From Deltaproteobacteria bacterium (GTDB lineage Bacteria; Desulfobacterota; Syntrophia; Syntrophales; UBA2210): a stretch of DNA of 15,291 nt. Shown in pieces: positions 1 to 14,364 of the stretch (positions are counted from its first letter, which is position 1; every line of letters begins with the position of its first letter). The notes beneath the pieces were generated by a model. That model was not told the DNA's origin. It saw only the letters and a list, made by a program, of their open reading frames with translations, and made no database searches. The stretch is taken from positions 1 through 15,291 of the forward strand of contig JAFCZZ010000011.1 in assembly GCA_019314085.1 (NCBI GenBank), given 5' to 3'. The position numbers and the translations under genes are program-made.

Positions 1-16
1 CAGCGGCGGTGGCGCG

Positions 17-274
17 GTGAGCAAGAAGGGAATACGCATCATCGAGGCGATGCTGCGCGTTGACAAGGTCACCGAGGCAGCGGCATCGTTTTATGACAGC
101 ACCGACGATGCTCCCGTGGCCGAGCATCTGTTTCGATACTGGGTTGTCACCGAGTGCTCCACCGGCCGCCTGACGGTTCAGCCGGTGCCGGCTGGGAACT
201 TTGGAGTGCTAGCGGACCCGCCTGGCCCGCAACATGGCTGCGCTCAGGGCCATGATCAGGATCGGGTTAGGTAG
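17..274 (+). CDS. Uncertain hypothetical protein, possible 3' end of a longer gene
   Basis: This is an 85-codon frame beginning with GTG and ending in TAG. It stays open to the left edge of the window, so it may be the tail of a longer gene. The first 60 residues read like ordinary protein (a helix around IRIIEAMLRV, then a mixed acidic and hydrophobic stretch). The last 20 residues are poor in structure and overlap the end of the recombinase gene on the other strand by 66 bases. I do not recognise a family. No leftward frame of useful length competes in bases 1-208, which is the main support for it. It could be a chance frame in GC-rich DNA. Confidence 0.35.
   Translation: MSKKGIRIIEAMLRVDKVTEAAASFYDSTDDAPVAEHLFRYWVVTECSTGRLTVQPVPAGNFGVLADPPGPQHGCAQGHDQDRVR
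176..199 (-). terminator. Possible hairpin terminator after the recombinase gene
   Basis: Ten bases past the TAG stop of the recombinase there is a hairpin. A 6-bp arm pair (AGCCGG/CCGGCT) is extended by GTTC/GAAC with a two-base bulge, and the loop is very short. No T-run follows on the minus strand, so it is not a textbook intrinsic terminator. It also lies inside the uncertain rightward frame. Confidence 0.3.
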
Positions 275-2587
275 CAGCTTCCGGGCGGGCCCGAGCCGGG
301 TGAGCGCTGCGGCGCGGCGGTTGGGTGTGGCGTCGCGGAAGCCTGTCGGCACCCGTGTCGCCCGCACCAGATCTCGCTCCTGCTCCTCCTGCATCATGGC
401 CTCGGCCTCGCTCATGCCGCCCTCAGGTTCGCTGGCTTGCTGCAGCAGCCGCCCCCCCCGCTCCCATTGCTCGAGCACCGCTGGCACCTCAGACTCGGGC
501 AAAAGCGCCGCCAGCTCTTGCTCCTGGGCCTGGGGGCACGGGATCCGGTAGGCCGCCATGGCTTCGAGGTAGTCGAGCCGCTCAGCCCAGTTCTTGCGCC
601 GGTACCAGGCGTCCGGTTTTCCCTCTTCATGCAGGTGGCGGGCTAGGCGGCGAGCCACACACTCGGAGTGAGCGCCGGTGGCCGCCGCAAACTCACGGGC
701 AAACTCGGGCGTGTGCCGGATGTTGCCCTGCCGAACGCGAAACAGCCCCTTGTACTTGTCCCCCTCGCGTCCGAGCGGGGCCCCGGCGGTGCAGAGCGAA
801 AACAGTTGCAAGATGGGATCGGCACCGGCCTCTTTGCCAAACAGCTTCTTGACCAGCGCCATGAAGTGGGGGCTGAGGTATTTGCTGTGCTCCGCGGCGC
901 GCGAGCTGAGCTGCTCGCTTTGTTCTCCGCCCCGCTCGAGCACTTTTTTGGAGATCTCGGCGCTGACCGCTCGGCCCTTGCGAGCCTTGCGCTCGGCGGC
1001 GTAGGAGAAATCGCTCACCTTCCCGGCAGTGAGCGTGCTCGTCAGCCGTTGTAGCTCGTTTTCTAGCGCGGCCCCGCTCAGCTCTTTGAGCTCGGGCTCG
1101 ATCTCTTCGTCGCCGGCGACCATCTCATACTGGCAGAGCAAGCTCAGAAACTTACCAAGCTCCTTGCGGCTGAGCCCATCAAATCGCGCCGTCCGGTCGG
1201 CGGGGGGCTGCCCCACCCAGACCTGCAACCAGTCCAGTAGCTCCCCCCGATCCCGCTCGCTCAGGTCCCCCAGAGGATCGGTGCTGCGGTACCACTTGGG
1301 GATGTCCAGCGGCTCGCCCGTGGCTACCCGGGTCTCGCCCGTCTCGCGGTACTGCCACGCCGTCTGCTGAAACCAGCTTATGATGGCGCCGTCAATGTGA
1401 GTGCGCAGCACCGCCGGCCTCGAGCCTGACCGCAGCCGCGTCTCGCTCGGCGGGGCATTGGTAGGCAGCCATCCGCCGTTGCGCCTGCGGAGCACCTCAT
1501 CGGTCTCGAGCGTCACCAATGCCGCCGTGCGCACCCATTGGCTGAGCGCGGCGGCAGCGGTGGGTCCGAACTTCTCATCGACCATCCAGCGGTCGTATAG
1601 GGCCACTAGCTCCAGGCAGAGCTGCTCGGAGCATAGTGGATCGCCTAGCGGACCCAACAGCTGGCTCGGGCTCATGATGGGCATGGCGGGAAAATCTGGG
1701 TTTGGGGTATAGCCGAAGCTCTCGGAGTGCATTCTGCCCCCCGCGCCCTCCCACCAGGGAAGGCCAGTGCGTTTGCCGACGTAGGCATGGCTCAGCAAGC
1801 CTGTGGAGCCACGCTGCAGCCAGGTCCTCGCCCGACCCTTGCTCTCGCCCCAATTGGAGCTGTAGGTCTCGCGCACTAGCGCGGGGGCCTGCTGTTGGGC
1901 GGCCTCATGGATTGGCTGCAGCAGCACTTCGCCGGGCGGCGGCACGGGGGCCTGCCCGAGCCCCACTAGCCCGCGCTTTGTGGGTTTGGTCCCTGCCCCC
2001 TCTCCGATTACCCCCGCAATCGCCACAGCTTCATGCTCTGGCGCCTCTAAGTCAATCTCGTGCTCCGGCGCCTCGGCTGCCCCTGCCGGCTCTGAGGGCG
2101 CCATAGCGGCCTCGATGGTCCGCGAGGGTCTTGGGGCCGCCGCCTGGCTGCCCGGCGCCGGGGCTCTACCACTGGCAGCGGGCATCAGGCTTCTGCTGCG
2201 GGGATCTCGGACCTCCAGATAGTGGCCGGTGTACGCTAGGCTCGAGTGGCCCATCGTGGCCTGGATGGTGGAGATGTCCACGCCCCGATCCCGGGCGTTG
2301 AGCGCGGCCAAGTGCCGGAGCCCGTGGGGGTGCATCTTCGTGTACCCGGCGCTGTCCTTGTCATGCCCGGCGAAGGTGGCGCGGCGGTGCAGCATGCGGG
2401 CCAGTCCGCTCGGCGACAGCCCGCTCAGCTCCTCGGCTCGCTGCAGCCCGGTCTCGTTCCGTCCCCAGAGCTTGAGCGGAGGGAATAGGGGCGCATCGGC
2501 CTCGGTGAGTAGATCGGTCAGCGAACCGGGCTTGCTGCGAGCCGCTCGCCCGCTCAGCTCGGCTTGAAACTCACCGATGGCCGCCAT
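209..2587 (-). CDS. Giant tyrosine recombinase, C-terminal part (box II catalytic half plus large unknown extension)
   Basis: This is the downstream part of a phage-integrase-type site-specific recombinase, in the same frame as the N-terminal part and separated from it by one TAA and 13 sense codons. Residues 86-92 (HPHGLRH) carry the box II His and Arg (H88, R91). GHSS holds His114, and Y123 in TGHYLEV is the expected nucleophile. After about residue 130 comes a Pro/Ala-rich linker containing EAPEHE twice (172-177 and 181-186). Then about 550 residues follow that I cannot assign, rich in Trp, Leu and Glu, ending in a hydrophobic patch (PILIMALSAAML) and basic residues. Ordinary integrases end soon after the Tyr. 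The ATG at 2587 has no ribosome-binding site, so separate translation looks unlikely. Confidence 0.8.
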   Translation of the reverse strand: MAAIGEFQAELSGRAARSKPGSLTDLLTEADAPLFPPLKLWGRNETGLQRAEELSGLSPSGLARMLHRRATFAGHDKDSAGYTKMHPHGLRHLAALNARDRGVDISTIQATMGHSSLAYTGHYLEVRDPRSRSLMPAASGRAPAPGSQAAAPRPSRTIEAAMAPSEPAGAAEAPEHEIDLEAPEHEAVAIAGVIGEGAGTKPTKRGLVGLGQAPVPPPGEVLLQPIHEAAQQQAPALVRETYSSNWGESKGRARTWLQRGSTGLLSHAYVGKRTGLPWWEGAGGRMHSESFGYTPNPDFPAMPIMSPSQLLGPLGDPLCSEQLCLELVALYDRWMVDEKFGPTAAAALSQWVRTAALVTLETDEVLRRRNGGWLPTNAPPSETRLRSGSRPAVLRTHIDGAIISWFQQTAWQYRETGETRVATGEPLDIPKWYRSTDPLGDLSERDRGELLDWLQVWVGQPPADRTARFDGLSRKELGKFLSLLCQYEMVAGDEEIEPELKELSGAALENELQRLTSTLTAGKVSDFSYAAERKARKGRAVSAEISKKVLERGGEQSEQLSSRAAEHSKYLSPHFMALVKKLFGKEAGADPILQLFSLCTAGAPLGREGDKYKGLFRVRQGNIRHTPEFAREFAAATGAHSECVARRLARHLHEEGKPDAWYRRKNWAERLDYLEAMAAYRIPCPQAQEQELAALLPESEVPAVLEQWERGGRLLQQASEPEGGMSEAEAMMQEEQERDLVRATRVPTGFRDATPNRRAAALTRLGPARKLLPNPILIMALSAAMLRARRVR

Positions 2588-2626
2588 GGCTGGGGCCGGA
2601 ACTACGAAGGTGCGCGTCTTGTCACC

Positions 2627-2629
2627 TTA
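2627..2629 (-). other. In-frame TAA at the catalytic lysine codon of the recombinase
   Basis: Minus-strand reading is GGC TAA GGT GAC AAG ACG CGC, that is G-stop-G-D-K-T-R. Tyrosine recombinases have GKGxKxR here, the beta2-beta3 hairpin. The stop lies 24 residues after the box I Arg, the same spacing as Arg148 to Lys172 in E. coli XerD (from memory). A single A-to-T change of AAA gives this TAA, and frame is kept on both sides. TAA ends other genes in the window (6656, 11680, 13350), so it is not a reassigned sense codon. Confidence 0.9.
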
Positions 2630-3817
2630 GCCCACGATCGTGAGCAGGACGGGGGCGGAGTGCAGCTGCCCGCGTCGAATCGACTGCAACTCCTCGGCGC
2701 GCACGCCGGTCAGCAGCATGAACAACAAGATGGCCCGATCGCGCAGAGCCATGAGCGTGGCCACGCCGCTGGCCGCCGAGCTGACGTCCGCTCCACTGGC
2801 GGCGGAGGCGGCCGCGGCCGCGGCCTGCTTTCCATGGCTGCGCCGGAAAGTGGTGGCGAGCACCTGTACAAATAGCTCCATGTCCGGGGTCTTGATCTCC
2901 CGGCTGAGCTGCTTGCGCGTGCGAGAGATGCGGGAGGCTCGCCGTCTCGGCTCATTCCAGATGTTGTGGGCGAGCAGCGCGTCGGCGGGCCCGACGTTCT
3001 CTCCAGTGGCAGAGCGCAGGTGCTCCCAGAACGAGCACAGCACGCTTAACCGAGATGCGACCGTGCTTGACCGCTCAGCGCCCCGGGCCTGGGTGTGCGG
3101 ATTGGTGAAGTACTGAAACAGCTCAGGATCCACGCGGTAGTCAAGCTGCGCTCTGGAAGGAGAAACCTCATCGACGTGCACCGATTCGGAGCGGATTTGC
3201 TCCACCGTGGGAGTCCGCCGAACTATCCCGTGCTCGGTCAAGCAGGCCAGGTGAAGGTCTAAGCCGGTGGGGGGTTGGCGCCCGTGCTGCTCGGCGAACG
3301 CTGCAGCAGTGTCTCCGCGCAGATCGCCTTGTTCGATCTCGAGTACCGAGAGCGACTCGGAGCGGCCCGCTGCGGTGAAGGTGACGTTTACGCCAAACCC
3401 CGCGGACAGTAGCTTGCGCCGCAGCTCGGAGCAGCGAATGCCAGGGGACAGTTTGACTGCCCGGTAGATGGTCAGGTCCAGGGTTCGGTCGGGATCTTGC
3501 GACAGCCTGAGCTCGTCAAGCCCCAGCTTGCGTTCGGTGAGCCACTGGGCGTAGGCGTGCGCCTCGGCGCGCCGCACCAGATCGGGGGTTGGGTAGTGCT
3601 GCCTCTCGGCCCAGTACCAGTCCCAAAACTCCAGCAGCGCAAAGGCGTAGCTGCGCCGAGTGTGCTCGTTCTGTTTTGAGCCGAGAAATCCCAGCAGCGC
3701 CTCGGAGTACCGCTCACCGCGAGCTTGTCGGCTCCAGGCCTGGGTGAGAAGTTTGAGTTTGATCCCTGCCCTGGAAAGCTTGTTGTCCGGGGAGCTGATG
3801 TCGATCGCCGTGGCCAC
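2627..3817 (-). CDS. Giant tyrosine recombinase, N-terminal part (core-binding domain and box I Arg), ends at premature TAA
   Basis: This is the upstream part of the recombinase. It starts at GTG 3817; an in-frame TAG 12 bases upstream (3827-3829) limits the start. Residues 40-95 resemble the first half of a SAM-like core-binding domain (HTRRSYAFALLEFWDWY), and residues 245-295 look like its second half (SSTVASRLSVLCSFWEHL). The roughly 140 residues between them look inserted; part (125-150) could be a small winged helix. The catalytic domain starts near 310, is broken by an Ala/Ser-rich stretch (331-352), and reaches box I, LLTGVRAEEL, with Arg373. The frame then stops at residue 397 where the catalytic Lys belongs. 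The gene is the most distal visible member of the leftward genes, 200 bases behind the sigma-like gene. As written it is a truncated, inactive protein unless the stop is read through or is a sequencing error. Confidence 0.8.
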   Translation of the reverse strand: MATAIDISSPDNKLSRAGIKLKLLTQAWSRQARGERYSEALLGFLGSKQNEHTRRSYAFALLEFWDWYWAERQHYPTPDLVRRAEAHAYAQWLTERKLGLDELRLSQDPDRTLDLTIYRAVKLSPGIRCSELRRKLLSAGFGVNVTFTAAGRSESLSVLEIEQGDLRGDTAAAFAEQHGRQPPTGLDLHLACLTEHGIVRRTPTVEQIRSESVHVDEVSPSRAQLDYRVDPELFQYFTNPHTQARGAERSSTVASRLSVLCSFWEHLRSATGENVGPADALLAHNIWNEPRRRASRISRTRKQLSREIKTPDMELFVQVLATTFRRSHGKQAAAAAASAASGADVSSAASGVATLMALRDRAILLFMLLTGVRAEELQSIRRGQLHSAPVLLTIVG

Positions 3818-3974
3818 GGGGCCAGTCTACCTAATTTTCCCTGGACGCGGGAGCGTTTCCGTGCCCGCTCGGTACCGACCCGTCGGAGGCCTAGTGGTTC
3901 TTGTCCGGCCCCCTCTCGGCCGGCTGAGGCGGCTGCGACTCCCCAGGCTCGTCGCCCGAGTGCTCGCTTCTCCA

Positions 3975-3993
3975 GCTCGGGGCATCTCCGAGC
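3975..3993 (-). terminator. Possible hairpin in the gap between sigma-like gene and recombinase
   Basis: GCTCGG and CCGAGC form a 6-bp stem with a 7-base loop, 28 bases past the TAG of the sigma-like gene. No T-run follows, so termination is only possible, not shown. I found no clear promoter in the remaining 150 bases before the recombinase start; the only AT-rich patch is at about 3828-3840. Confidence 0.25.
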
Positions 3994-4020
3994 CCGCAAC
4001 TTGCCCGAGTCGCGGGGCCC

Positions 4021-5091
4021 CTAGTCATCTCCCTCGCCGTCTTCTTTGACATCGACCCATCCCATCCAGAAGCGAAATAGCTCGGGGCCGTGCTCGTCCT
4101 CGAGCATTATGAAGAACACGGGTCGGTGGAGATACGCCAAGACCCACTCTCCAATCTTAGGGTGGGTCTTGGACACCCACTGCGCCACGCATCTTGCGCT
4201 GCGCGTCGTCTTGAGCACTGACGCATTTGCGGAGAGGTGCGGAGCGGATTGTACGCGCGCGCCCCTGAGGTCATTGGACCCGCACAGCGCATCGTATAGC
4301 TCCTGGTGATGCCGCAGATACCTGGCGCGGATGATGGGTCGTTGGTTGCGGCGCGCCCAGCGTGAGATGTAATTCTCTAGCGTGACCACGGCGGATTCTA
4401 TCTGTGCCCACCGAGAGTCAGATGGCGTAGCGTCGCGCTCAGGCGCGATTCCTGGCAGTTCGGCGGCAAAGTGGCGCAGTGCTTTGCCGTACGACGAGTG
4501 GTGCAGATACCGCAAGGCTCTCGCCTCCATCTGTCGTATGCGCTCCCTGCTCCTGGGATGACCGTTTGCTTTGGGTAGTGCCCGGCCGACCTCTGCCAGC
4601 TCCATTGGTCCGTCGGCATTGCCGATCCCAAAGCGCCGCCGCAGCACCTCGGCATGCTCCTTCGGCAGTAGGTCGAGCGCCTTGCGCACGGCATCCGCTG
4701 CCTGGGATGACTGAACCTCGTCCTCCGGGCTCGTGGCCGGCTCCGGCAACAGCGCTGCCACGGCTGCGGGAGGGAGTAGCTGCTCGGCGCCCACCTCAGT
4801 GATGATTTCCGGGACCGTCACCGCCAGCACTGCCCCGGGCCACAACTCAGCTGCGTCGCAGCCATAGAATTTGGCAATCTTTTGAGCGCTTGGCTTCCAC
4901 GCGATCGTCTCCTTTTTCAGGTGATTGTTCAGCGGTGACACCCGGAGACTCTCGAACCCCCCGTAAGCCCCCGTGGTAACACCGATGCGTTGCGCCAATT
5001 GACGCTGGGTGAGGTTTAGCTTTAGCCGGCGCGACTTGAGGTGGTTGTTGCGCAACCGTAGCGACAGCTCGAAGTCCTTGACGTCAGGCAT
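4021..5091 (-). CDS. XRE-type HTH and sigma-70 region 4 fusion protein
   Basis: Predicted DNA-binding regulator of 356 residues. Residues 11-80 form a Cro/CI-type helix-turn-helix (LNLTQRQLAQRIGVTTGAYG), ending in a CDAAELWP motif common in phage regulators. Residues 131-197 match sigma-70 region 4, with the hallmark LLPKEHAEVLRRRFGI and SRERIRQMEARALRYL, the part of a sigma factor that contacts the -35 element. No region 2 is present, so it cannot be a complete sigma factor. Residues 200-356 are unassigned, with Trp-rich ends and an acidic tail. It lies 3 bases behind the 118-residue gene and has a GGAGGG site 10 bases before ATG. I infer a middle/late transcription activator. Another possibility is a DNA-binding protein that only borrowed the region 4 fold. 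Confidence 0.8.
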   Translation of the reverse strand: MPDVKDFELSLRLRNNHLKSRRLKLNLTQRQLAQRIGVTTGAYGGFESLRVSPLNNHLKKETIAWKPSAQKIAKFYGCDAAELWPGAVLAVTVPEIITEVGAEQLLPPAAVAALLPEPATSPEDEVQSSQAADAVRKALDLLPKEHAEVLRRRFGIGNADGPMELAEVGRALPKANGHPRSRERIRQMEARALRYLHHSSYGKALRHFAAELPGIAPERDATPSDSRWAQIESAVVTLENYISRWARRNQRPIIRARYLRHHQELYDALCGSNDLRGARVQSAPHLSANASVLKTTRSARCVAQWVSKTHPKIGEWVLAYLHRPVFFIMLEDEHGPELFRFWMGWVDVKEDGEGDD

Positions 5092-5094
5092 GGC

Positions 5095-5451
5095 TCAGGT
5101 GCCCTCCGGTTCGCCATCGGCCCCTTCAGCAGCAGGCGGGTCGTCTTCGGATTCGGCGTCGATCGGAGGTTGGTCGTCGTTTCTGATGAACTTGTCGTGC
5201 CGCTCCCTGAGTTCTTGGGCGAGAAAAGAAAGCTGACCGCAGTTGCTAATGACGAGATCTATCAGTTCTTCTAAGTCCTCGGCGTCGGTGAACTGAATCC
5301 ATTTGACCTGGGCCTGGACAGCACACGCCACCGCATCGATCTTTTGCGCGGCCTCGCGCTTCCACTTGTAAAAGTCTAGCTGCCGCCGCTTCTCGTCGAG
5401 GTGGGCAGTGGCTCTCTGGAGTGCTTTTTCACTGATTTTTTTTTCTGTCAT
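5095..5451 (-). CDS. Hypothetical helical protein with acidic tail
   Basis: 118 residues, family not recognised. The start is set at ATG 5451 because it overlaps the stop of the previous gene as ATGA. Further upstream the same frame only shadows that gene. The protein is mostly helical and charged for residues 1-90 (KALQRATAHLDEKRRQLDFY, then LEELIDLVISNCGQLSFL), compatible with a coiled coil or helical bundle. It ends with about 30 acidic, Pro-rich residues. Codons 3-6 contain a run of nine A, an odd feature in GC-rich DNA (see findings). The gene is immediately followed by the sigma-like fusion and is presumably co-translated with it. Confidence 0.7.
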   Translation of the reverse strand: MTEKKISEKALQRATAHLDEKRRQLDFYKWKREAAQKIDAVACAVQAQVKWIQFTDAEDLEELIDLVISNCGQLSFLAQELRERHDKFIRNDDQPPIDAESEDDPPAAEGADGEPEGT

Positions 5452-5873
5452 GGCGACCTCGAGCCCATGGTTTTGAGCAGCGAGCGCCAGACGGCAACCG
5501 GGGCTCCATGGCGACTCTTTCGTTTGGTCGTGCGGAACCGTCCGGTGCGCTCGATGATGTGACACTCGACCGCCCGCTTCAGCACTGAGCCCAGCGCGCG
5601 CGAGTCTGCTGGGGGCTTTAGCTCGGTGTCCCATATCTCATCGGCGGTGAAGTAGCGCCTTCGCTGGGCCACCTGCAGTACGGCGCGTTCGGCAAGTCCG
5701 GCCCACCCGGCGCTGACGCCAAAAGCGGTTACGTCGGCGCTTGAGCTCGGCGGCCGGCCAGAGGCCGAGAGGCCGCTGGACTCACCAAATAACGGCAGCT
5801 GTCGTTTGTCATCATCCATTGTTGCGCCTGTGAGTGGGTCGACAGGGGGTAGCTTCTCGATGGCTCTCTTCAC
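5448..5873 (-). CDS. Winged-helix-like phage hypothetical protein
   Basis: 141 residues. The core (about 60-130) has YFTADEIWDTELKPPADSRA, then a helix and VAVWRSL, the pattern of small phage proteins thought to be winged helices (my recollection of the family; function unknown). The N-terminal 55 residues are low in structure and include QLPLFG, a short motif resembling beta-clamp-binding peptides. That resemblance is only suggestive. I chose GTG 5873 because it overlaps the TGA of the 35-residue gene as GTGA. GTG 5876 and ATG 5819 (MDDDKRQLPLFG) are alternatives. The stop overlaps the next gene start as ATGA. Confidence 0.7.
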   Translation of the reverse strand: MKRAIEKLPPVDPLTGATMDDDKRQLPLFGESSGLSASGRPPSSSADVTAFGVSAGWAGLAERAVLQVAQRRRYFTADEIWDTELKPPADSRALGSVLKRAVECHIIERTGRFRTTKRKSRHGAPVAVWRSLLKTMGSRSP

Positions 5874-5977
5874 CACCAGCCAGCAATAAATCCGGCCAGA
5901 ATTAATCCAATGCTGAGGCCCACAAATAGGCCGCAGCCAAAGTCGCCGCCAGATGGCTCTGCCGCCAGGCGCCTCAT
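5870..5977 (-). CDS. 35-residue single-span membrane peptide
   Basis: Short ORF: ATG 5977, stop TGA 5872-5870. The N-terminus is MRRLAAEPSGGDFG, followed by one hydrophobic stretch of about 20 residues (CGLFVGLSIGLILAGFIAGW) and a terminal Trp pair. Two Arg at the start predict an N-in orientation by the positive-inside rule. A GAGG site lies 8 bases upstream. It starts 10 bases after the previous stop and its own stop overlaps the next start as GTGA, so it fills what would otherwise be a gap in the operon. I do not know the family. A role in envelope alteration, exclusion or lysis regulation would be guesswork. Confidence 0.6.
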   Translation of the reverse strand: MRRLAAEPSGGDFGCGLFVGLSIGLILAGFIAGWW

Positions 5978-6655: not shown

Positions 6656-7111
6656 TTATCGGGCGGTTCTTTCGACGAACTTTCGGTTTAGCTGTACTCG
6701 CTTGGCGAGCTGTTTGCGGCTTAGGGCTCTGAGTCGCCACGTACGCAGATAGAAGCGTCGCTCCCAGTCGTTGAACCATCCACGCCCATGCCCGTGCTCG
6801 ATGGCTTCCACGTTGAGCGCCCTGACCTCGTTGGTTCGCACGCGGCGCAGCGCGTCGAATATTTTGTGAGACGGTAGCATGAGGAATTGGCTGACGCAGA
6901 CGTTGCCCACTTCGGTGCTGGCGCCGTTATGGCGGTTGTCGATTACGCAGATCTCGACAATCGGATGGTGGGTGCACAGGCACGTCTTCGGCGCCTTTGG
7001 ATCGACGAGGTAGACTTCGCTCAGGACCCATTCGCGTCTCGCCAGCTCCCAAGAGTCGCTGTTGCTGCGCGCGATGATCTCGGCTGCGAGGATCTCTCGC
7101 TTGGTAGGCAT
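6656..7111 (-). CDS. Cys/His-containing phage hypothetical protein
   Basis: 151 residues. The block PKTCLCTHHPIVEICVIDNR followed by VGNVCVSQF has Cys44, Cys46, His48, His49, Cys55 and Cys72, a plausible metal site. The pattern is one I have seen in uncharacterised phage proteins. After this comes a helical, strongly basic C-terminus (WERRFYLRTWRLRALSRKQL), which could bind nucleic acid. ATG 7111 abuts the TAG of the preceding gene directly and has GGAGG seven bases upstream. The gene ends in TAA, which matters because it shows TAA works as a stop in this genome. Function unknown. Confidence 0.75.
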   Translation of the reverse strand: MPTKREILAAEIIARSNSDSWELARREWVLSEVYLVDPKAPKTCLCTHHPIVEICVIDNRHNGASTEVGNVCVSQFLMLPSHKIFDALRRVRTNEVRALNVEAIEHGHGRGWFNDWERRFYLRTWRLRALSRKQLAKRVQLNRKFVERTAR

Positions 7112-8364: not shown

Positions 8365-8580
8365 TCAGCTAGCTAGCTTTCTTAGATCTCTCGGTTTGTG
8401 GGTTTCCAGTGGCGCGACGCGAAGAACGTCGCGCAACGCGTTCACGAAGTACATGTAATCGAGCTTGTTGGAGTATAAGACGCGGCACCTTGGGCACCTC
8501 GCGCGCCCCCCGTAAGACTCCTCCTGTCTGCCACACCAGATGCACGGCGTGACGCACCTTAGCTGGGTGTCTTTCGCCAT
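8365..8580 (-). CDS. Small zinc-ribbon-like protein
   Basis: 71 residues. The start ATG 8580 overlaps the previous stop as TGATG, with GGGAG eight bases upstream. Two Cys pairs (CIWC and CPRC) 16 residues apart form a simple zinc ribbon (about residues 13-32), followed by a helical segment (YMYFVNALRDVL) and a basic end (HKPRDLRKL). Ribbons of this kind bind nucleic acid or protein partners; nothing shows which here. It is the second gene of the leftward operon, directly after the putative recombination protein, with which it may cooperate. Confidence 0.75.
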   Translation of the reverse strand: MAKDTQLRCVTPCIWCGRQEESYGGRARCPRCRVLYSNKLDYMYFVNALRDVLRVAPLETHKPRDLRKLAS

Positions 8581-9161
8581 CAGTTGGTCTCCCGAGCGAA
8601 TACGTCCGTGGCAGAGACCCATCCAGAGCCTACTGCCCGCGCGAGCGCCCTGAGTGAGGTCCCATCGCGTTGCCCAAGATAGCCCGCCGTCTCCCTGTGC
8701 AGTGCGTCAAAAGTCTCCCTCTCTACCGCCGCCTCGATGCACTGATGGATCAGCCTCTGCGGGAGCGCAGCGCAAATAGTGTTACGAAAAGCCCGACTCT
8801 TTCCGTCGTTCAACTGCAGGGATCGCCATCTGTTCCCCGTGTGCCTGCCAGGGGCGCCCTTGTGGCTCTTCCGGTAGAGTCGGCTCACAGTTAAGCCGGT
8901 AGTAAGATCTACAAACGTCGCCTCGAACAACCAGAAGCCCAGCCCCTCTCCATGTAGCTCAGCATCACACTCAGCGGACCCCCATTGCCTCAGAAGCATG
9001 GATGCCCCGTTGACCGTTACACCGCATCCAGCTGTCTGGCCTCGCTGGTTATGTGGGAGTGACCAGCGGTAGAAAAACTTCCCCCCCATCACCGCCGCTT
9101 CGGCTGTTGCGCGCCTCTCAACGGCGCTGTAGTCGCGGCCTGTTTGGTGGGTTCCAGCCAT
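8580..9161 (-). CDS. Putative phage recombination protein, possibly single-strand annealing type
   Basis: First gene of the leftward operon, 193 residues. The features that guide the call are FFYRWSLP, GASMLLRQWGSAECDAEL, ATFVDLTTGLTVSRLYRKSH, and above all DGKSRAFRNTICAALPQRL. I associate this order, including a GxSKAxRNxxxxALP block, with a phage family probably related to recombination or annealing proteins of the Rad52 type. I am not sure of the family name and assign the function with low confidence. ATG 9161 is only 6 bases from the -10 element, so the mRNA may be leaderless; ATG 9089 (MGGKFFYRW) is the alternative start. Lead position under repressor control fits a lytic recombination function. 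Confidence 0.6.
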   Translation of the reverse strand: MAGTHQTGRDYSAVERRATAEAAVMGGKFFYRWSLPHNQRGQTAGCGVTVNGASMLLRQWGSAECDAELHGEGLGFWLFEATFVDLTTGLTVSRLYRKSHKGAPGRHTGNRWRSLQLNDGKSRAFRNTICAALPQRLIHQCIEAAVERETFDALHRETAGYLGQRDGTSLRALARAVGSGWVSATDVFARETN

Positions 9162-9167
9162 GAGCGG

Positions 9168-9195
9168 ATATTACCGCGCGGGCAACAGAAGTCAA
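9168..9195 (-). promoter_or_regulatory. Leftward early promoter (TTGACT-16-TAATAT)
   Basis: On the minus strand the -35 is TTGACT (9195-9190), the spacer 16 bases, and the -10 is TAATAT (9173-9168, 4 of 6 to consensus). The expected transcription start falls on or next to the ATG at 9161, so the transcript could be leaderless. The -35 lies in the left arm of the palindrome. Confidence 0.5.
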
Positions 9196-9207
9196 CCAGT
9201 TGTTGAC
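9191..9207. promoter_or_regulatory. Palindromic operator GTCAACcagttGTTGAC
   Basis: Perfect 6-bp inverted repeat with a 5-base centre, located between divergent genes and overlapping the -35 elements of both directions. This is the expected position and size for the binding site of a dimeric Cro/CI-type repressor, here most likely the product of the adjacent rightward gene. I saw no second complete copy, only scattered half-sites. Confidence 0.6.
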
Positions 9208-9232
9208 ATGAGGGTAAACATGATGGCAGATT
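9203..9232 (+). promoter_or_regulatory. Possible rightward promoter with consensus -35 TTGACA
   Basis: TTGACA (9203-9208) is a perfect -35 inside the right operator arm, but the -10 candidates 17-18 bases on (GCAGAT, CAGATT) are weak. A weak -10 suits a promoter needing activation, as in repressor-maintenance promoters. If real, the start site would be near 9239 and the repressor would begin at ATG 9241 on a leaderless mRNA. Confidence 0.3.
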
Positions 9233-9471
9233 CTCCAGTGATGGCTAAGCTAAACCGCCGCAAGAACAAGCGCGCCACTCCCGCGAGTCGGGCAAAGGTG
9301 CTGAAGGTGGCCCTAAAAAAGAAAGGGTGGAAGCAGTGCCACGTGGCCAAGGCGATGAAGGTCTCGCCCCCAACGGTCTCTCGCTGGTTCACCGGAAAGC
9401 GGGCACCGGATCGAGATCATATCGCCGATCTATGCGAGCTGCTCGACATCCGCCCGGAGCTTTTACTGTGA
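9220..9471 (+). CDS. Small XRE-family repressor (Cro/CI-like)
   Basis: About 83 residues, nearly all one helix-turn-helix domain. KKKGWKQCHVAKAMKVSPPT followed by VSRWFTGKRAPDRDHIADLC is a classic Cro/CI fold (helices 2-3 are QCHVAKAMKV and PPTVSRWF). There is no C-terminal oligomerisation or self-cleavage domain, so it is Cro-sized rather than full CI. I prefer ATG 9220 because GAGGG lies five bases upstream; ATG 9241 (MAKLNRRKNK) is possible if the mRNA is leaderless, and a GTG-to-ATG extension to 9160 would overlap the divergent gene. Divergent placement against the early operon, with a palindrome between, says it is the lysis/lysogeny switch regulator. Confidence 0.8.
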   Translation: MMADSPVMAKLNRRKNKRATPASRAKVLKVALKKKGWKQCHVAKAMKVSPPTVSRWFTGKRAPDRDHIADLCELLDIRPELLL

Positions 9472-9662
9472 CCGGAACCGAGCGCGCCGTGCGTTATCCG
9501 ACCTCGGCGGACACGCTCCAAGAGTTGGAACGTGTCGTCGCATCGTGCCCTGGTTGGGCCCAGGACAAGTTTGTGGTGACCTATCAGGGCACCGATCTGA
9601 ACTTCGCCCAAGCCTCGCGCATCGTGAATCCTCCATCAGTGTCGCGCTCCAGCCAACGGTAG
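9468..9662 (+). CDS. Small hypothetical protein coupled to the repressor
   Basis: 64 residues. GTG 9468 overlaps the repressor stop as GTGA, the same coupling style used elsewhere in the window, and the TAG stop ends two bases before the helicase start, so it fits a three-gene rightward operon. TSADTLQELERVVASCPGWA is probably helical, followed by DKFVVTYQGTDLNFAQASRI. No family recognised. The last ten residues are low in complexity. It may be a helper of the repressor or helicase, or only a translational link. Confidence 0.5.
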   Translation: MTGTERAVRYPTSADTLQELERVVASCPGWAQDKFVVTYQGTDLNFAQASRIVNPPSVSRSSQR

Positions 9663-9664
9663 CC

Positions 9665-11356
9665 ATGTCCGTTCGGGTGACCGGTAGGGTCATCAGCGTC
9701 AAGCCGCTCGAAGACGGCACTCGGTTCTCGGTGACCGTCGGGCCGCCGCCAGAGCTGTTCTGGTTCGAGACGCGCCGCCCGCCACGTCTTGGTGCGCGGG
9801 TACGGGTCACCGGTTCGGTGCGCACCAAGCAGGAACTCGGCGGCGCTGCCGGTGGCTCGGTCAGTGTGCTGTCCTCTGCCCGCTGGAAAGCCGTGGACCA
9901 CTCGCACCCGGCAAGGCCCGTTCCCCAGACGTGGCTGCGTCGCGTTCAAGAGGTGATGGGCCGGCCTTTGTACCGGTACCAGGTTGAAGGGGCCGGTTGG
10001 ATTTGCTCACGCCTGTCGCAGCGTCGCGGAGCCATCTTGGGTGACGACCCGGGGCTCGGCAAGACGGCCCAGGCGGTAGCGGCCGCCGTTGCCCTTGGGC
10101 GCTACCCCGTGGTGGTTGTGTGCCCGGCCAGTCTGAAGCAGCACTGGGTGCGGGAGTTTGCCGAAGCGCGTGAGCCGCCGGTGATGTTCGTGGCCGAAGG
10201 CCGCTATGGGCCCATGGGGCCGGGGCAGGTGTTCATTTTGAACTACGAGCTTCTGTGGCCGCGAGAAAAGCAGCTCCTCGAGCTCAAGCCAAGTTTGTAC
10301 ATCTTCGACGAGGCGCAGTACTTGAAGGAGCCTGAGGCGCGCGGCAAGCACCGCGCTGCAGTGGCGACCCGGCTCGTGCGTCACACCGGCGGCGCGCTGG
10401 AGCTAACCGGCACCCCCATCATGAACCGCCCCGCTGAGCTGTGGCGGCTGCTGCACTTGAGCGAGCCCAACCGTTGGCCTTCTTTCGAAGAGTACCGCGA
10501 CCGGTACCTGACACCCAAGAAGGGCAAAGAGGTGGGGCGGCATGTCCGCACCAAGGCGGGACGGATCGAGCGGCTCGACGAGCTACAGGCCACGGTGGCT
10601 CCGGCCATGTTGCGGCGACTGAAGATGCAGGTGCTGCCGGAGCTTCCGCCCAAGCATCGTCGCAGCTTGCTGGTCGATCTCGGCCAGCAGTACATGACCC
10701 ACTACCGGGTGGCCGAACACAACGTGATTAAATGGCTCAGCGCCATGGGGCAAGACGCCAGGGCGGTGCGCGCTGCGCGGGCCGAGGGCTTGGTGCGACT
10801 GACGATGCTGCGCCACATCGCCGCCGTCGGCAAACTCGCCCATGCGGTGCCCAGCTATCTCGGCCGTTGGTATGGGCAGCCCAACCCCGAGCCGCTGGTG
10901 ATCTTCGCCTACCACCGCGACGTCATCGTGGGCCTGTGGAACATCTGTCGGCAGCTGCGCTCGCGCGTTGCCGGCATCGGTGGTGGCGAGGGCATGGCCA
11001 AGCGGCAGCGGCAGATCGATTCGTTCCAGAATGGTGAGGCCGACGCGTTCATTGCTCCGATCGCCAGCGCTGGGGTCGGCCTGAACCTGCAGCGGTCAAA
11101 CGAGGCGCTGTTCGTGGAACGGATCTGGACGCCAAGTGGCATGGTGCAGGCCGAGGATCGCATCCACCGGCTAGGGCAGCAGCGCCCCTGCACCATCACC
11201 TATCTCGACGCCCGGGGCACCGTGGACGAGTACATTGCCACGGTGCTCGAGCAGAAGCAGGCGCTCATTGCGGCGACCGTCGACTCCAGCGATCCGGTGA
11301 CCGAATCTGTCGAGACGGCCAACCAGGTCATGGCCGGGCTGCGTGACGACGAGTGA
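9665..11356 (+). CDS. SNF2-family DNA helicase/translocase with OB-like N-terminus
   Basis: 563 residues. It has the two RecA-like lobes of superfamily 2 SNF2 ATPases: Walker A GDDPGLGKT (126-134), Walker B FDEAQ (DEAQ rather than DEAH, 215-218), motif III LTGTP (247-251), motif V SAGVGLNLQ (468-476) and motif VI QAEDRIHRLGQ (495-505). The proteins closest in style are small SMARCAL1-like and phage SNF2 helicases, which move on double-stranded DNA or anneal strands. Residues 1-60 contain two RVTG-type strands (RVTGRVISV and RVRVTGSV) that could form an OB fold; this is a guess from pattern. ATG 9665 is chosen because the 64-residue gene ends at 9662; an upstream extension to 9545 only shadows that gene. 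It shares the repressor's direction. Confidence 0.85.
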   Translation: MSVRVTGRVISVKPLEDGTRFSVTVGPPPELFWFETRRPPRLGARVRVTGSVRTKQELGGAAGGSVSVLSSARWKAVDHSHPARPVPQTWLRRVQEVMGRPLYRYQVEGAGWICSRLSQRRGAILGDDPGLGKTAQAVAAAVALGRYPVVVVCPASLKQHWVREFAEAREPPVMFVAEGRYGPMGPGQVFILNYELLWPREKQLLELKPSLYIFDEAQYLKEPEARGKHRAAVATRLVRHTGGALELTGTPIMNRPAELWRLLHLSEPNRWPSFEEYRDRYLTPKKGKEVGRHVRTKAGRIERLDELQATVAPAMLRRLKMQVLPELPPKHRRSLLVDLGQQYMTHYRVAEHNVIKWLSAMGQDARAVRAARAEGLVRLTMLRHIAAVGKLAHAVPSYLGRWYGQPNPEPLVIFAYHRDVIVGLWNICRQLRSRVAGIGGGEGMAKRQRQIDSFQNGEADAFIAPIASAGVGLNLQRSNEALFVERIWTPSGMVQAEDRIHRLGQQRPCTITYLDARGTVDEYIATVLEQKQALIAATVDSSDPVTESVETANQVMAGLRDDE

Positions 11357-11900: not shown

Positions 11901-12653
11901 TCAACTTTTCTTCGTCGCGGCGGCCTCTAGTGGAGGGGCGAGGGCGAGGCTGCGGCCGGCCACTCGCCCGGCCAGATGCCCGGAGAGGTTTTGCCGAAAG
12001 CCCTCCGGCGGTTCGCCGTAGCCCGGTCCAGTGGCGAGAGTGCGGCAGTAGCGAACGACCCGCTGCTCGTAATTCTCTAGCCGCACCAGGGCCCGCTCGT
12101 TGCGTCCGACGACAGCTCGTTGTTGCTGCTCCTTGGCGCGGCGCAGCCGCAACACGATCTCGAGCACGGCTCCGATCCGGAAACTCGTGCCCCACTGCGT
12201 TGCCTCTACTCGGCTCCAGCCGGCTCGGACCCGGCGCTGAGCGGCTACCGCTGCCCGAGCGAGCCGCTCAATCTCACGGCGCAGGTAGGTGTAGAGCTGG
12301 CGCACCACGGCCACGTCCTGGCGGTGGCCGATGAGGATGAGGCGAGCTTTACCGTGCCCCATAACCGACAGCGCTACCAGGCGGCAGTAGTTCAACTTGG
12401 CTAGCTCGGCGCCGAGGGTGAGCTTCCACAGCACGGGCTTGCCGATGACATCCAGCGGGTCGGCATCTCGGAGCGAGTTGCCGTTCTGTCCGTCCCGCAG
12501 CTGGTCGACTTCGGCCTGCTCGATCCGATGCTTTTCCATCAGGCCGGCGGCAGCGGCGGCGGCAGCGGCGGCCTCGTGGACGGTGGCCCCTTTGCCGACG
12601 CTGAGCGCCAGCAGCTTAGCAATCTTATCGAGGATTGTGTCCCGGTCCGTCAC
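11901..12653 (-). CDS. DUF2786 domain protein
   Basis: 250 residues. Residues 1-60 match DUF2786: ILDKIAKLLALS, an Ala-run helix (VHEAAAAAAAAAGLMEKHRI) and EQAEVDQL. DUF2786 proteins often carry a second domain of the DUF7168 type, which fits the middle section (LWKLTLGAELAKLNYCRLVA and MGHGKARLILIGHRQDVAVV). The last 100 residues are Arg/Leu-rich helices, possibly coiled coil (LRLRRAKEQQQR). Function is not known for the family, which is common in phages and bacteria. GTG 12653 overlaps the DUF4031 stop as GTGA and has GGAGG five bases upstream, which decides the start against an upstream extension. Confidence 0.85.
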   Translation of the reverse strand: MTDRDTILDKIAKLLALSVGKGATVHEAAAAAAAAAGLMEKHRIEQAEVDQLRDGQNGNSLRDADPLDVIGKPVLWKLTLGAELAKLNYCRLVALSVMGHGKARLILIGHRQDVAVVRQLYTYLRREIERLARAAVAAQRRVRAGWSRVEATQWGTSFRIGAVLEIVLRLRRAKEQQQRAVVGRNERALVRLENYEQRVVRYCRTLATGPGYGEPPEGFRQNLSGHLAGRVAGRSLALAPPLEAAATKKS

Positions 12654-12913
12654 CGTGTCCTCCGCTTGAACAGCCGGGCAGTGGCTTGGGCTCGGGCGGG
12701 CACGAACGTGGCGCCGAGCTTCAGTGCCCGCCTCCGCCGCACGAACGATAGGATGTCGTAGTGCGGGTGGACGCTGCTGGGCTGAAACCACGCTCGCTTG
12801 TGTCCGATCTGTACCGCTAGCCGGTGCAGCGGCTCGAGGTTTTCGCTGTCGGTGGTGAGGTGACAGCTGAGCTGTTGCCCTCCCCATCGACGCCACTCGT
12901 CAACCATGATCAT
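12650..12913 (-). CDS. DUF4031 domain protein
   Basis: 87 residues. The start MIMVDEW, then CHLTTDSENLEPLHRLAVQI, WFQ, the triad VHPHYDI, and ALKLGAT follow the DUF4031 pattern, a small family frequent in phages whose function is not established. The conserved HYDI and Trp residues are present, so it looks intact. ATG 12913 has GAGGTGA about five bases upstream; ATG 12907 is less like the family start. The next gene begins inside its stop (GTGA), so the two are likely co-translated. Confidence 0.85.
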   Translation of the reverse strand: MIMVDEWRRWGGQQLSCHLTTDSENLEPLHRLAVQIGHKRAWFQPSSVHPHYDILSFVRRRRALKLGATFVPARAQATARLFKRRTR

Positions 12914-13349: not shown

Positions 13350-13652
13350 TTAGGGTCTGGTTTTACTCGGCGGGAGCGCGCGTGGCGCCCCCCAGGTAAC
13401 CCGGCACCGCCACCCCAGCGCGTAGTAAACGCGGGCCAGCACCTTGATTCCGATGTCGTGCCGGTCATCCAGCAGTCGGCGGCACTGCTTCTTGGTGATG
13501 CCGGACAGGCGGCGCAGTTTCTTTTTGCTGATCCCGTGAACGCGCATCAGCTTTTGGATGTCGCACTGCACATCGACCCGCAGCCGCTCGGCGACGAACA
13601 CGAGTTTCTCGGCCTTGTTTCTCGGCCCCAGCCCCTTCGCGATCCTGCTCAT
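13350..13652 (-). CDS. Small HTH (XRE-like) protein
   Basis: 100 residues. A helix-turn-helix is visible in residues 31-77: LMRVHGISKKKLRRLSGITK, then RRLLDDRHDIGIKVLARVYY and ALGWRCRV, the spacing of Cro/CI-type domains in small phage regulators and antitoxins. The N-terminus (MSRIAKGLGPRNKAEKL) is basic and the last 15 residues are disordered. ATG 13652 has an AGAGG-type site about seven bases upstream. It has no partner toxin next to it, so I read it as a DNA-binding accessory regulator of the operon rather than a toxin-antitoxin half. Stop codon TAA. Confidence 0.75.
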   Translation of the reverse strand: MSRIAKGLGPRNKAEKLVFVAERLRVDVQCDIQKLMRVHGISKKKLRRLSGITKKQCRRLLDDRHDIGIKVLARVYYALGWRCRVTWGAPRALPPSKTRP

Positions 13653-13698: not shown

Positions 13699-14364
13699 TC
13701 ATACGACAGTGATCCTTCCTCGGGGGCCCGGCCCCCAGCTGAACCAGCCGTAGTCGGCCGCGTCAGTGGTCGTCAACCCCATCTTCTTGCGACACTTGGG
13801 GCACCGCATCGAGGCCACGGAGCGTGGCCGGGTGCGCTTCGCGTCACATGTTTTGCAGGTGAACACGTGGCAGAACGATGGCCGCCGGCTCAGCACAAGC
13901 ACATCCGCGGGGTTGTGCTGCCAAAAGTCGCGACGCTTGGCCGAGGCGAGAAAACCCAGCCGCAGCAGGGCGTGGACTGAGCCGCTTGTCTTTTTTACAA
14001 CCTCGATCGACACTTGCGCGAACCGCAGCGCTAGTTTGTAGGGCGGGTTCATGACGACCATGTCCGCGCTCAGCGTCCATGGTGACTTCAGAAAGTCGGC
14101 GCAGCGCACCTGGTGTCGCACTCGCGCCACTCGTGCTCGATAGGGGTTGAGCTCGATGCCCCGCAGATTGTGGGAGCCGAATCGGCCGCTGTCTTGCAGC
14201 GCGTTCAAGATGGCGCCCTTGCCGCAGCCGGGTTCTAGGATTGTTCCGCCCCCTTGGCCGTAGTGGTAGGGGGACAGGTGGTTGATCAGCGCCTCTACCG
14301 CCCAGGCGGGCGTTTCGTAGAAGTCGTCTTTGTGGCGGACGACGGATCTGCCGGTGGCGCTCAC
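13699..14364 (-). CDS. N6-adenine DNA methyltransferase with inserted zinc ribbon
   Basis: 221 residues. DDFYETPAWAVEALINHL is the usual N-terminal motif of small phage adenine methyltransferases. Motif I is EPGCGKG (44-50), the acidic Glu of motif II is in GIELNP, and the catalytic motif IV is NPPY (106-109). RPSF (161-164) and ADYGWFSWG (203-211) belong to the C-terminal part. Between them lies an insertion with CKTC (170-173) and CPKC (188-191), a zinc ribbon. I do not expect it in this family. GTG 14364 overlaps the previous stop as GTGA. No restriction endonuclease gene is next to it, so it looks solitary, fitting self-modification against host restriction. Confidence 0.85.
   Translation of the reverse strand: MSATGRSVVRHKDDFYETPAWAVEALINHLSPYHYGQGGGTILEPGCGKGAILNALQDSGRFGSHNLRGIELNPYRARVARVRHQVRCADFLKSPWTLSADMVVMNPPYKLALRFAQVSIEVVKKTSGSVHALLRLGFLASAKRRDFWQHNPADVLVLSRRPSFCHVFTCKTCDAKRTRPRSVASMRCPKCRKKMGLTTTDAADYGWFSWGPGPRGRITVV

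Follow-up and report, generated by a model that had tools for sequence, protein, structure and literature searches.

A stop codon at the hairpin lysine position of a giant tyrosine recombinase gene in a phage-like element

We found that a giant tyrosine recombinase gene carries, in one of its copies, an in-frame TAA at the position of the catalytic hairpin lysine, and that the frame is otherwise open and conserved on both sides. The gene lies in a stretch of 15,291 bases, which is called the window here. The stop is probably a recent and genuine nonsense mutation in one recombinase copy of a phage-like mobile element. Under this model, ribosomes would halt after residue 396, and the product would keep Arg373 while lacking the hairpin lysine, the HxxR motif, His524 and the tyrosine nucleophile. 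Such a protein would be unable to cut or rejoin DNA, and the element would therefore be fixed in place or would rely on another recombinase. That the stop falls on the lysine codon would then be a coincidence.

The interrupted recombinase frame

On the minus strand, a frame that starts with GTG (3817..2627) closes with TAA at 2627-2629. The same frame stays open past this TAA until a TAG at 209-211, which gives 1202 positions (3817 to 212), interrupted once, by the stop at position 397. This agrees with the preliminary description, in which the frame had been put at about 1,200 codons around the stop; an unrelated second in-frame stop, named there as one of the findings that would speak against it, was not present in the window frame. 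Read with X at the stop, the whole frame (209..3817, minus strand) matched Pfam PF00589 with an E value of 1.6e-13. The search for relatives gave 14 of 1170-1367 aa. The PF00589 scores were 51.3 bits for this whole frame and 35.9 bits for the C-terminal piece, both above the curated cut-off of 27.1, and the N-terminal piece alone gave no PF00589 match in the Pfam profile search. As judged from the model of an intact relative, P0002, the N-terminal open part of 396 aa (2630..3817, minus strand) comprises the N-terminal and core-binding regions and the first portion of the catalytic domain, in which Arg373 lies. The first ATG past the stop (2585..2587, minus strand), with 13 codons between, opens a recorded protein of 792 aa (P0003). 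Both the 396-aa and the 792-aa pieces are on record in the protein collection, from one contig of 15,291 bases only; as the window has this very length, it evidently represents the complete contig. The GC content at third codon positions is similar on either side of the stop (0.795 before and 0.808 after).

The stop lies in the context G-stop-G-D-K-T-R, 24 residues past the box I arginine, Arg373, exactly as previously described. A comparison with homologues at this position had been called for, and it placed a lysine in column 397 in 29/29 aligned relatives (alignment A2). As gene-called proteins, these relatives could not reveal an internal stop; in the DNA itself, the lysine codon was seen in five loci (L001-L004 and L011). 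Because all 29 relatives have the lysine, the stop is the derived state. The AlphaFold model of P0002 has the recombinase fold and places residue 397 between the strands 391-395 and 401-405, which form the expected beta-hairpin, and the assignment of the stop to the hairpin lysine is supported. According to passages of two published reports, the corresponding lysines of Cre and XerH are catalytic and that of Cre is likely a general acid (PMC4381057, PMC5241119).

The remaining catalytic residues are all present in the window copy and invariant in 29/29 relatives, with the Arg, the His-x-x-Arg, the His/Trp and the Tyr in register. Their codons, all on the minus strand, are those of Arg373 (2699..2701), His498 of the HxxR motif (2324..2326), the box II arginine Arg501 (2315..2317), His524 (2246..2248) and the nucleophile Tyr533 (2219..2221). 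The last four had been listed earlier as His88, Arg91, His114 and Tyr123, counted from the ATG at 2587. By descent, the gene is a tyrosine recombinase (phage integrase), and this copy is predicted to have lost its activity with the hairpin lysine.

Origin of the stop codon

The closest intact relative, P0002, is a protein of 1193 aa encoded on a 22,325-base ENA contig. The window copy is 84% identical to it over the whole length and has the same domain order; in contrast to the window copy, P0002 has a lysine in column 397 and an uninterrupted frame. Lineage-specific changes were scored at sites of difference between the window and P0002, provided that four or more of the six outgroup rows sided with either one. 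The window had 19 such changes and P0002 had 18, and by part the ratio of window to P0002 changes was 9:7 up to the stop, 1:1 over the remaining catalytic domain and 9:10 past it. At columns invariant in the 22 compared relatives (of 29), the window deviates only at position 199 and at the stop, and P0002 deviates at none. Outside the stop, the sequence gives no sign of relaxed constraint or decay. Since the rest of the protein is free of decay, the stop either arose very recently, is an error or is translated through, and the decay and GC data alone fail to separate these three.

The main rival to a nonsense allele is a consensus sequencing or assembly error, with an ordinary full-length recombinase in the organism, and we give it a modest but real chance. 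The lack of further damage, which counts to this extent against a nonsense allele, would be just as likely with a consensus error or with translation through the stop; the restriction of both recorded pieces to one contig and the existence of an intact relative as close as P0002 also fit an error. Against an error, mistakes that create a stop are rare in a consensus built from deep short reads, as that of this contig may or may not be. The other window genes with relatives in the related loci (those for the SNF2 helicase, the HTH, 193-aa, 142-aa and DUF2786 proteins) have open frames throughout the matched parts, and no match was seen to be split by a frameshift, as far as matches outside a systematic test can indicate. 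Furthermore, the protein cluster to which the 396-aa N-terminal product belongs (P0017, clustered at 90% identity) has two member sequences with one contig listed. The second member may or may not carry the stop; it could represent a further stop-bearing copy, which would also count against a recent nonsense allele, or simply a fragment from a contig edge.

We then considered the other copies of the gene. The relatives compared at the DNA level were G001-G006 and one element present in three records (G007-G009), which agree at 99.98-100% identity across 5,400 compared bases and were counted once. Together with the window they make eight distinct loci, of which G004 is partial; G010-G012, with open frames of about 300 aa, were left out. 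The only other break among the eight is a single in-frame TAG in G003 (L003:3614-3616). It falls in the column of window Glu63, a non-catalytic position about 330 positions upstream of the window stop, and the G003 frame is conserved both upstream and downstream of it; the frame that follows starts with GTG and stays open for 1236 aa. The stop at the lysine was seen in no relative examined, neither among the 29 aligned proteins nor among the DNA loci. The preliminary description had taken the stop to be more than a random pseudogene mark. This view is not supported: the stop is absent from all relatives examined, and G003 is broken at a different, non-catalytic place. Broken integrases are frequent in mobile elements, and the unrelated TAG of G003 indicates, at the sequence level, that nonsense alleles do occur in this recombinase family. 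Two of eight loci with one stop each, differing in place and codon, speak for scattered loss of function over a conserved signal. Nevertheless, two single-stop copies among eight loci, one of them partial, might exceed plain decay, and an inclined reader may alternatively take them as a hint of read-through.

In a wider search with the N-terminal piece, one match was found in the protein collection, the window's own product; this search was insensitive and missed the 547-aa relative P0030. Of the 25 matches of the C-terminal search, none but the window's own was a fragment confined to the C-terminal part and beginning past the lysine, which fits a nonsense allele. Neither piece had a relative among viral contigs, nor did the SNF2 gene. 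No match at 1e-5 was found for the N-terminal piece in plasmids or for the C-terminal piece in phages, and the window DNA had no near match in phages and plasmids. With P0002, three plasmid and phage records were matched, in the catalytic domain only. Alignment searches returned 4, 8 and 1 loci; the single locus was the L001 contig again, and three of the eight (L016-L018) had open frames of just 297-305 aa. Two scans of GTDB genome contigs, with two peptide patterns each, detected no relative. One distant relative, P0031, came from an NCBI source.

The position of the stop implies no mechanism. Apart from the lysine codon, a single substitution would turn 303/1201 codons in the frame into a stop; of the remaining catalytic codons, this holds for that of Tyr533 alone. 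Of random nonsense events, about 2/304 would therefore land on either reachable catalytic position and about 7/304 in a reachable, fully invariant column. The stop at the lysine is thus a modest coincidence, spotted after the fact; it is unusual for one gene and unremarkable as a pick from a scan of many windows. Any stop ahead of Tyr533 is equally disabling. For the same reason, the proposal that the stop was selected to lock the element in place finds little footing, since a stop almost anywhere before Tyr533 would serve.

Decoding of the stop codon

If the TAA were occasionally decoded, a little full-length enzyme would be made and recombination would be limited. We consider such read-through unlikely, although read-through integrases have precedent. 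In passages of one report, the intA gene of the Salmonella prophage ST64B is described with an in-frame TGA and yet a detected full-length protein, which its authors suggest is needed for prophage control (PMC12455584). Judged by the same passages (PMC12455584), the two genes are alike in that each encodes a phage tyrosine recombinase with a single in-frame stop and a nearby ATG without its own ribosome-binding site. They differ in that the window stop is TAA rather than TGA, in that the ST64B passages do not place the TGA at the catalytic lysine, and in that the full-length ST64B protein was detected whereas the window copy is known from sequence alone. An in-frame stop with the frame conserved on either side, as a read-through-regulated integrase would have, is found in the window, and the TAG of G003 lies in the same gene. 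However, a stop at the same place across relatives is not: column 397 is Lys, not a stop, in 29/29 relatives and the G003 stop is elsewhere, so that nothing about the signal is conserved. In addition, TAA is the least leaky stop codon, and normal activity would require that lysine itself be inserted.

Signals of recoding, which had also been proposed, were sought in the window, and none was found. The window holds no tRNA gene, no Rfam family was matched at the gathering score, and the RNA fold downstream of the stop is unremarkable (z-score -1.55, with 12/200 shuffles as good). A promoter and terminator scan of positions 1-4100 picked out a single promoter-like site on the minus strand (66-38; 0.3 in shuffles) and two terminator-like sites (2.4 in shuffles), all of which lie away from the stop. 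In the related loci, the tRNA scan gave one tRNA-Arg (tct) in L003 and none in eight others. This gene (L003:16724-16800, in G003) lies about 9 kb from the recombinase gene and is possibly an attachment site or a carried tRNA.

A broader version of the same idea is that single in-frame stops are tolerated or used in this family. The window ochre and the G003 amber would both be decoded at a low level, the full-length enzyme would be rare, and lysine-type suppression would couple excision to translational error. We regard this as very unlikely.

A change of the genetic code with TAA as a sense codon is extremely improbable. Of the 18 tiled open reading frames of the window, only that of the recombinase closes with TAA, and coding density rises from 0.864 to 0.893 when TAA is opened. 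Opening TAG or TGA, however, raises it further (0.939 and 0.903, respectively). Moreover, among the 23 plausible window genes, TAA also terminates 6656-7111 and 13350-13652, neither of which is backed by a family match. Five TAA-open frames have a TAA inside. Relatives that span the TAA were found for the recombinase, the one of the five for which they were sought; the other four fuse neighboring open reading frames (two) or only extend the start of one (two). TAA thus probably still serves as a terminator, its presence inside several genes is not supported, and a TAA-sense code was rejected.

The gene might instead have been split or exapted, with the 396-aa part serving as a DNA-binding regulator or the 792-aa part translated separately for another role, which we also hold to be improbable. 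The list of folds similar to P0002 includes the recombinase-like phage regulators SroF, YopR and MrpR, and the ATG 13 codons past the stop offers a start. In opposition to this, no Shine-Dalgarno-like sequence was seen by eye in the 20 bases before that ATG (at 2587), the catalytic residues are unchanged on both sides of the stop, and the change ratios given above are steady along the gene. A nonsense allele remains the probable explanation. The stop, the open remainder of the frame, the conserved column and the lack of decay elsewhere are observed; that the stop is present in the DNA, that it is not read through and that activity is lost are inferred.

The element and the recombinase family

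The genes around the recombinase are in part shared with related loci. The window, L001 and L002 have in common the recombinase, an SNF2-family helicase (9545..11356, plus strand), an HTH regulator (9160..9471, plus strand), a 193-aa protein (8580..9161, minus strand) and a 142-aa protein (5448..5876, minus strand). The recombinase and the helicase are also common to the window, L003 and L004, and a DUF2786/DUF7168 protein (phrog_421; 11901..12896, minus strand) is common to the window and L002. A DNA methyltransferase (phrog_799) is encoded at 13699..14364 on the minus strand. Two SNF2-family helicase genes each are present in L001 (5142-6851 and 20372-22072) and L002 (5224-6933 and 22296-23501), compared with one in the 15 kb of the window. 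A 356-aa protein (4021-5091, minus strand) combines a Cro/C1-type HTH with a segment like sigma-70 region 4, a seemingly unusual pairing. Names were assigned to 10 proteins of the window and to 20 of L001, L002, L003, L009 and L010, a subset of the open reading frames, and no capsid, portal or terminase was among them. Endolysin-like genes occur in G002 and G003, one of which also matches a "head and packaging" profile named endolysin.

Compared with XerD, XerA, XerH, lambda Int and Cre, which have roughly 270-360 residues, the giant recombinase has about 1200. Its N-terminal part is longer than theirs, and it has a C-terminal region with some 550 conserved residues; the window copy differs further in the stop at the lysine. 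The giant recombinases collected here (P0002, P0004-P0016 and P0018-P0029) have 1139-1367 aa, except for P0027 with 944 aa. Their C-terminal region carries a HSECVARRLARH...PCP motif. P0030, the 547-aa relative, stops directly after the catalytic domain and is without this region. In the window, positions 546-1202 (209..2182, minus strand) comprise a low-confidence linker followed by the conserved, mostly helical region, with no Pfam match. The C-terminal residues, about 550 in number, are predicted to be mostly helical and mostly with high confidence (mean pLDDT 78.6, pTM 0.73). No match at E 1 or better was found in Pfam, the PHROGs gave a chance-level match alone (E 0.2), and the comparison with solved folds gave no convincing match. 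By analogy with other large recombinases, a possible role of the region is to bind DNA or a partner at synapsis.

As a nonsense allele, the stop is of little importance. If read-through were true, it would match the reported TGA case with an ochre codon and would allow the control of excision by translational error to be tested cleanly. The enzyme family itself, with about 1200 residues and a C-terminal region without a Pfam family, is more unusual than the stop, and giant recombinases with this large uncharacterized region merit separate attention.
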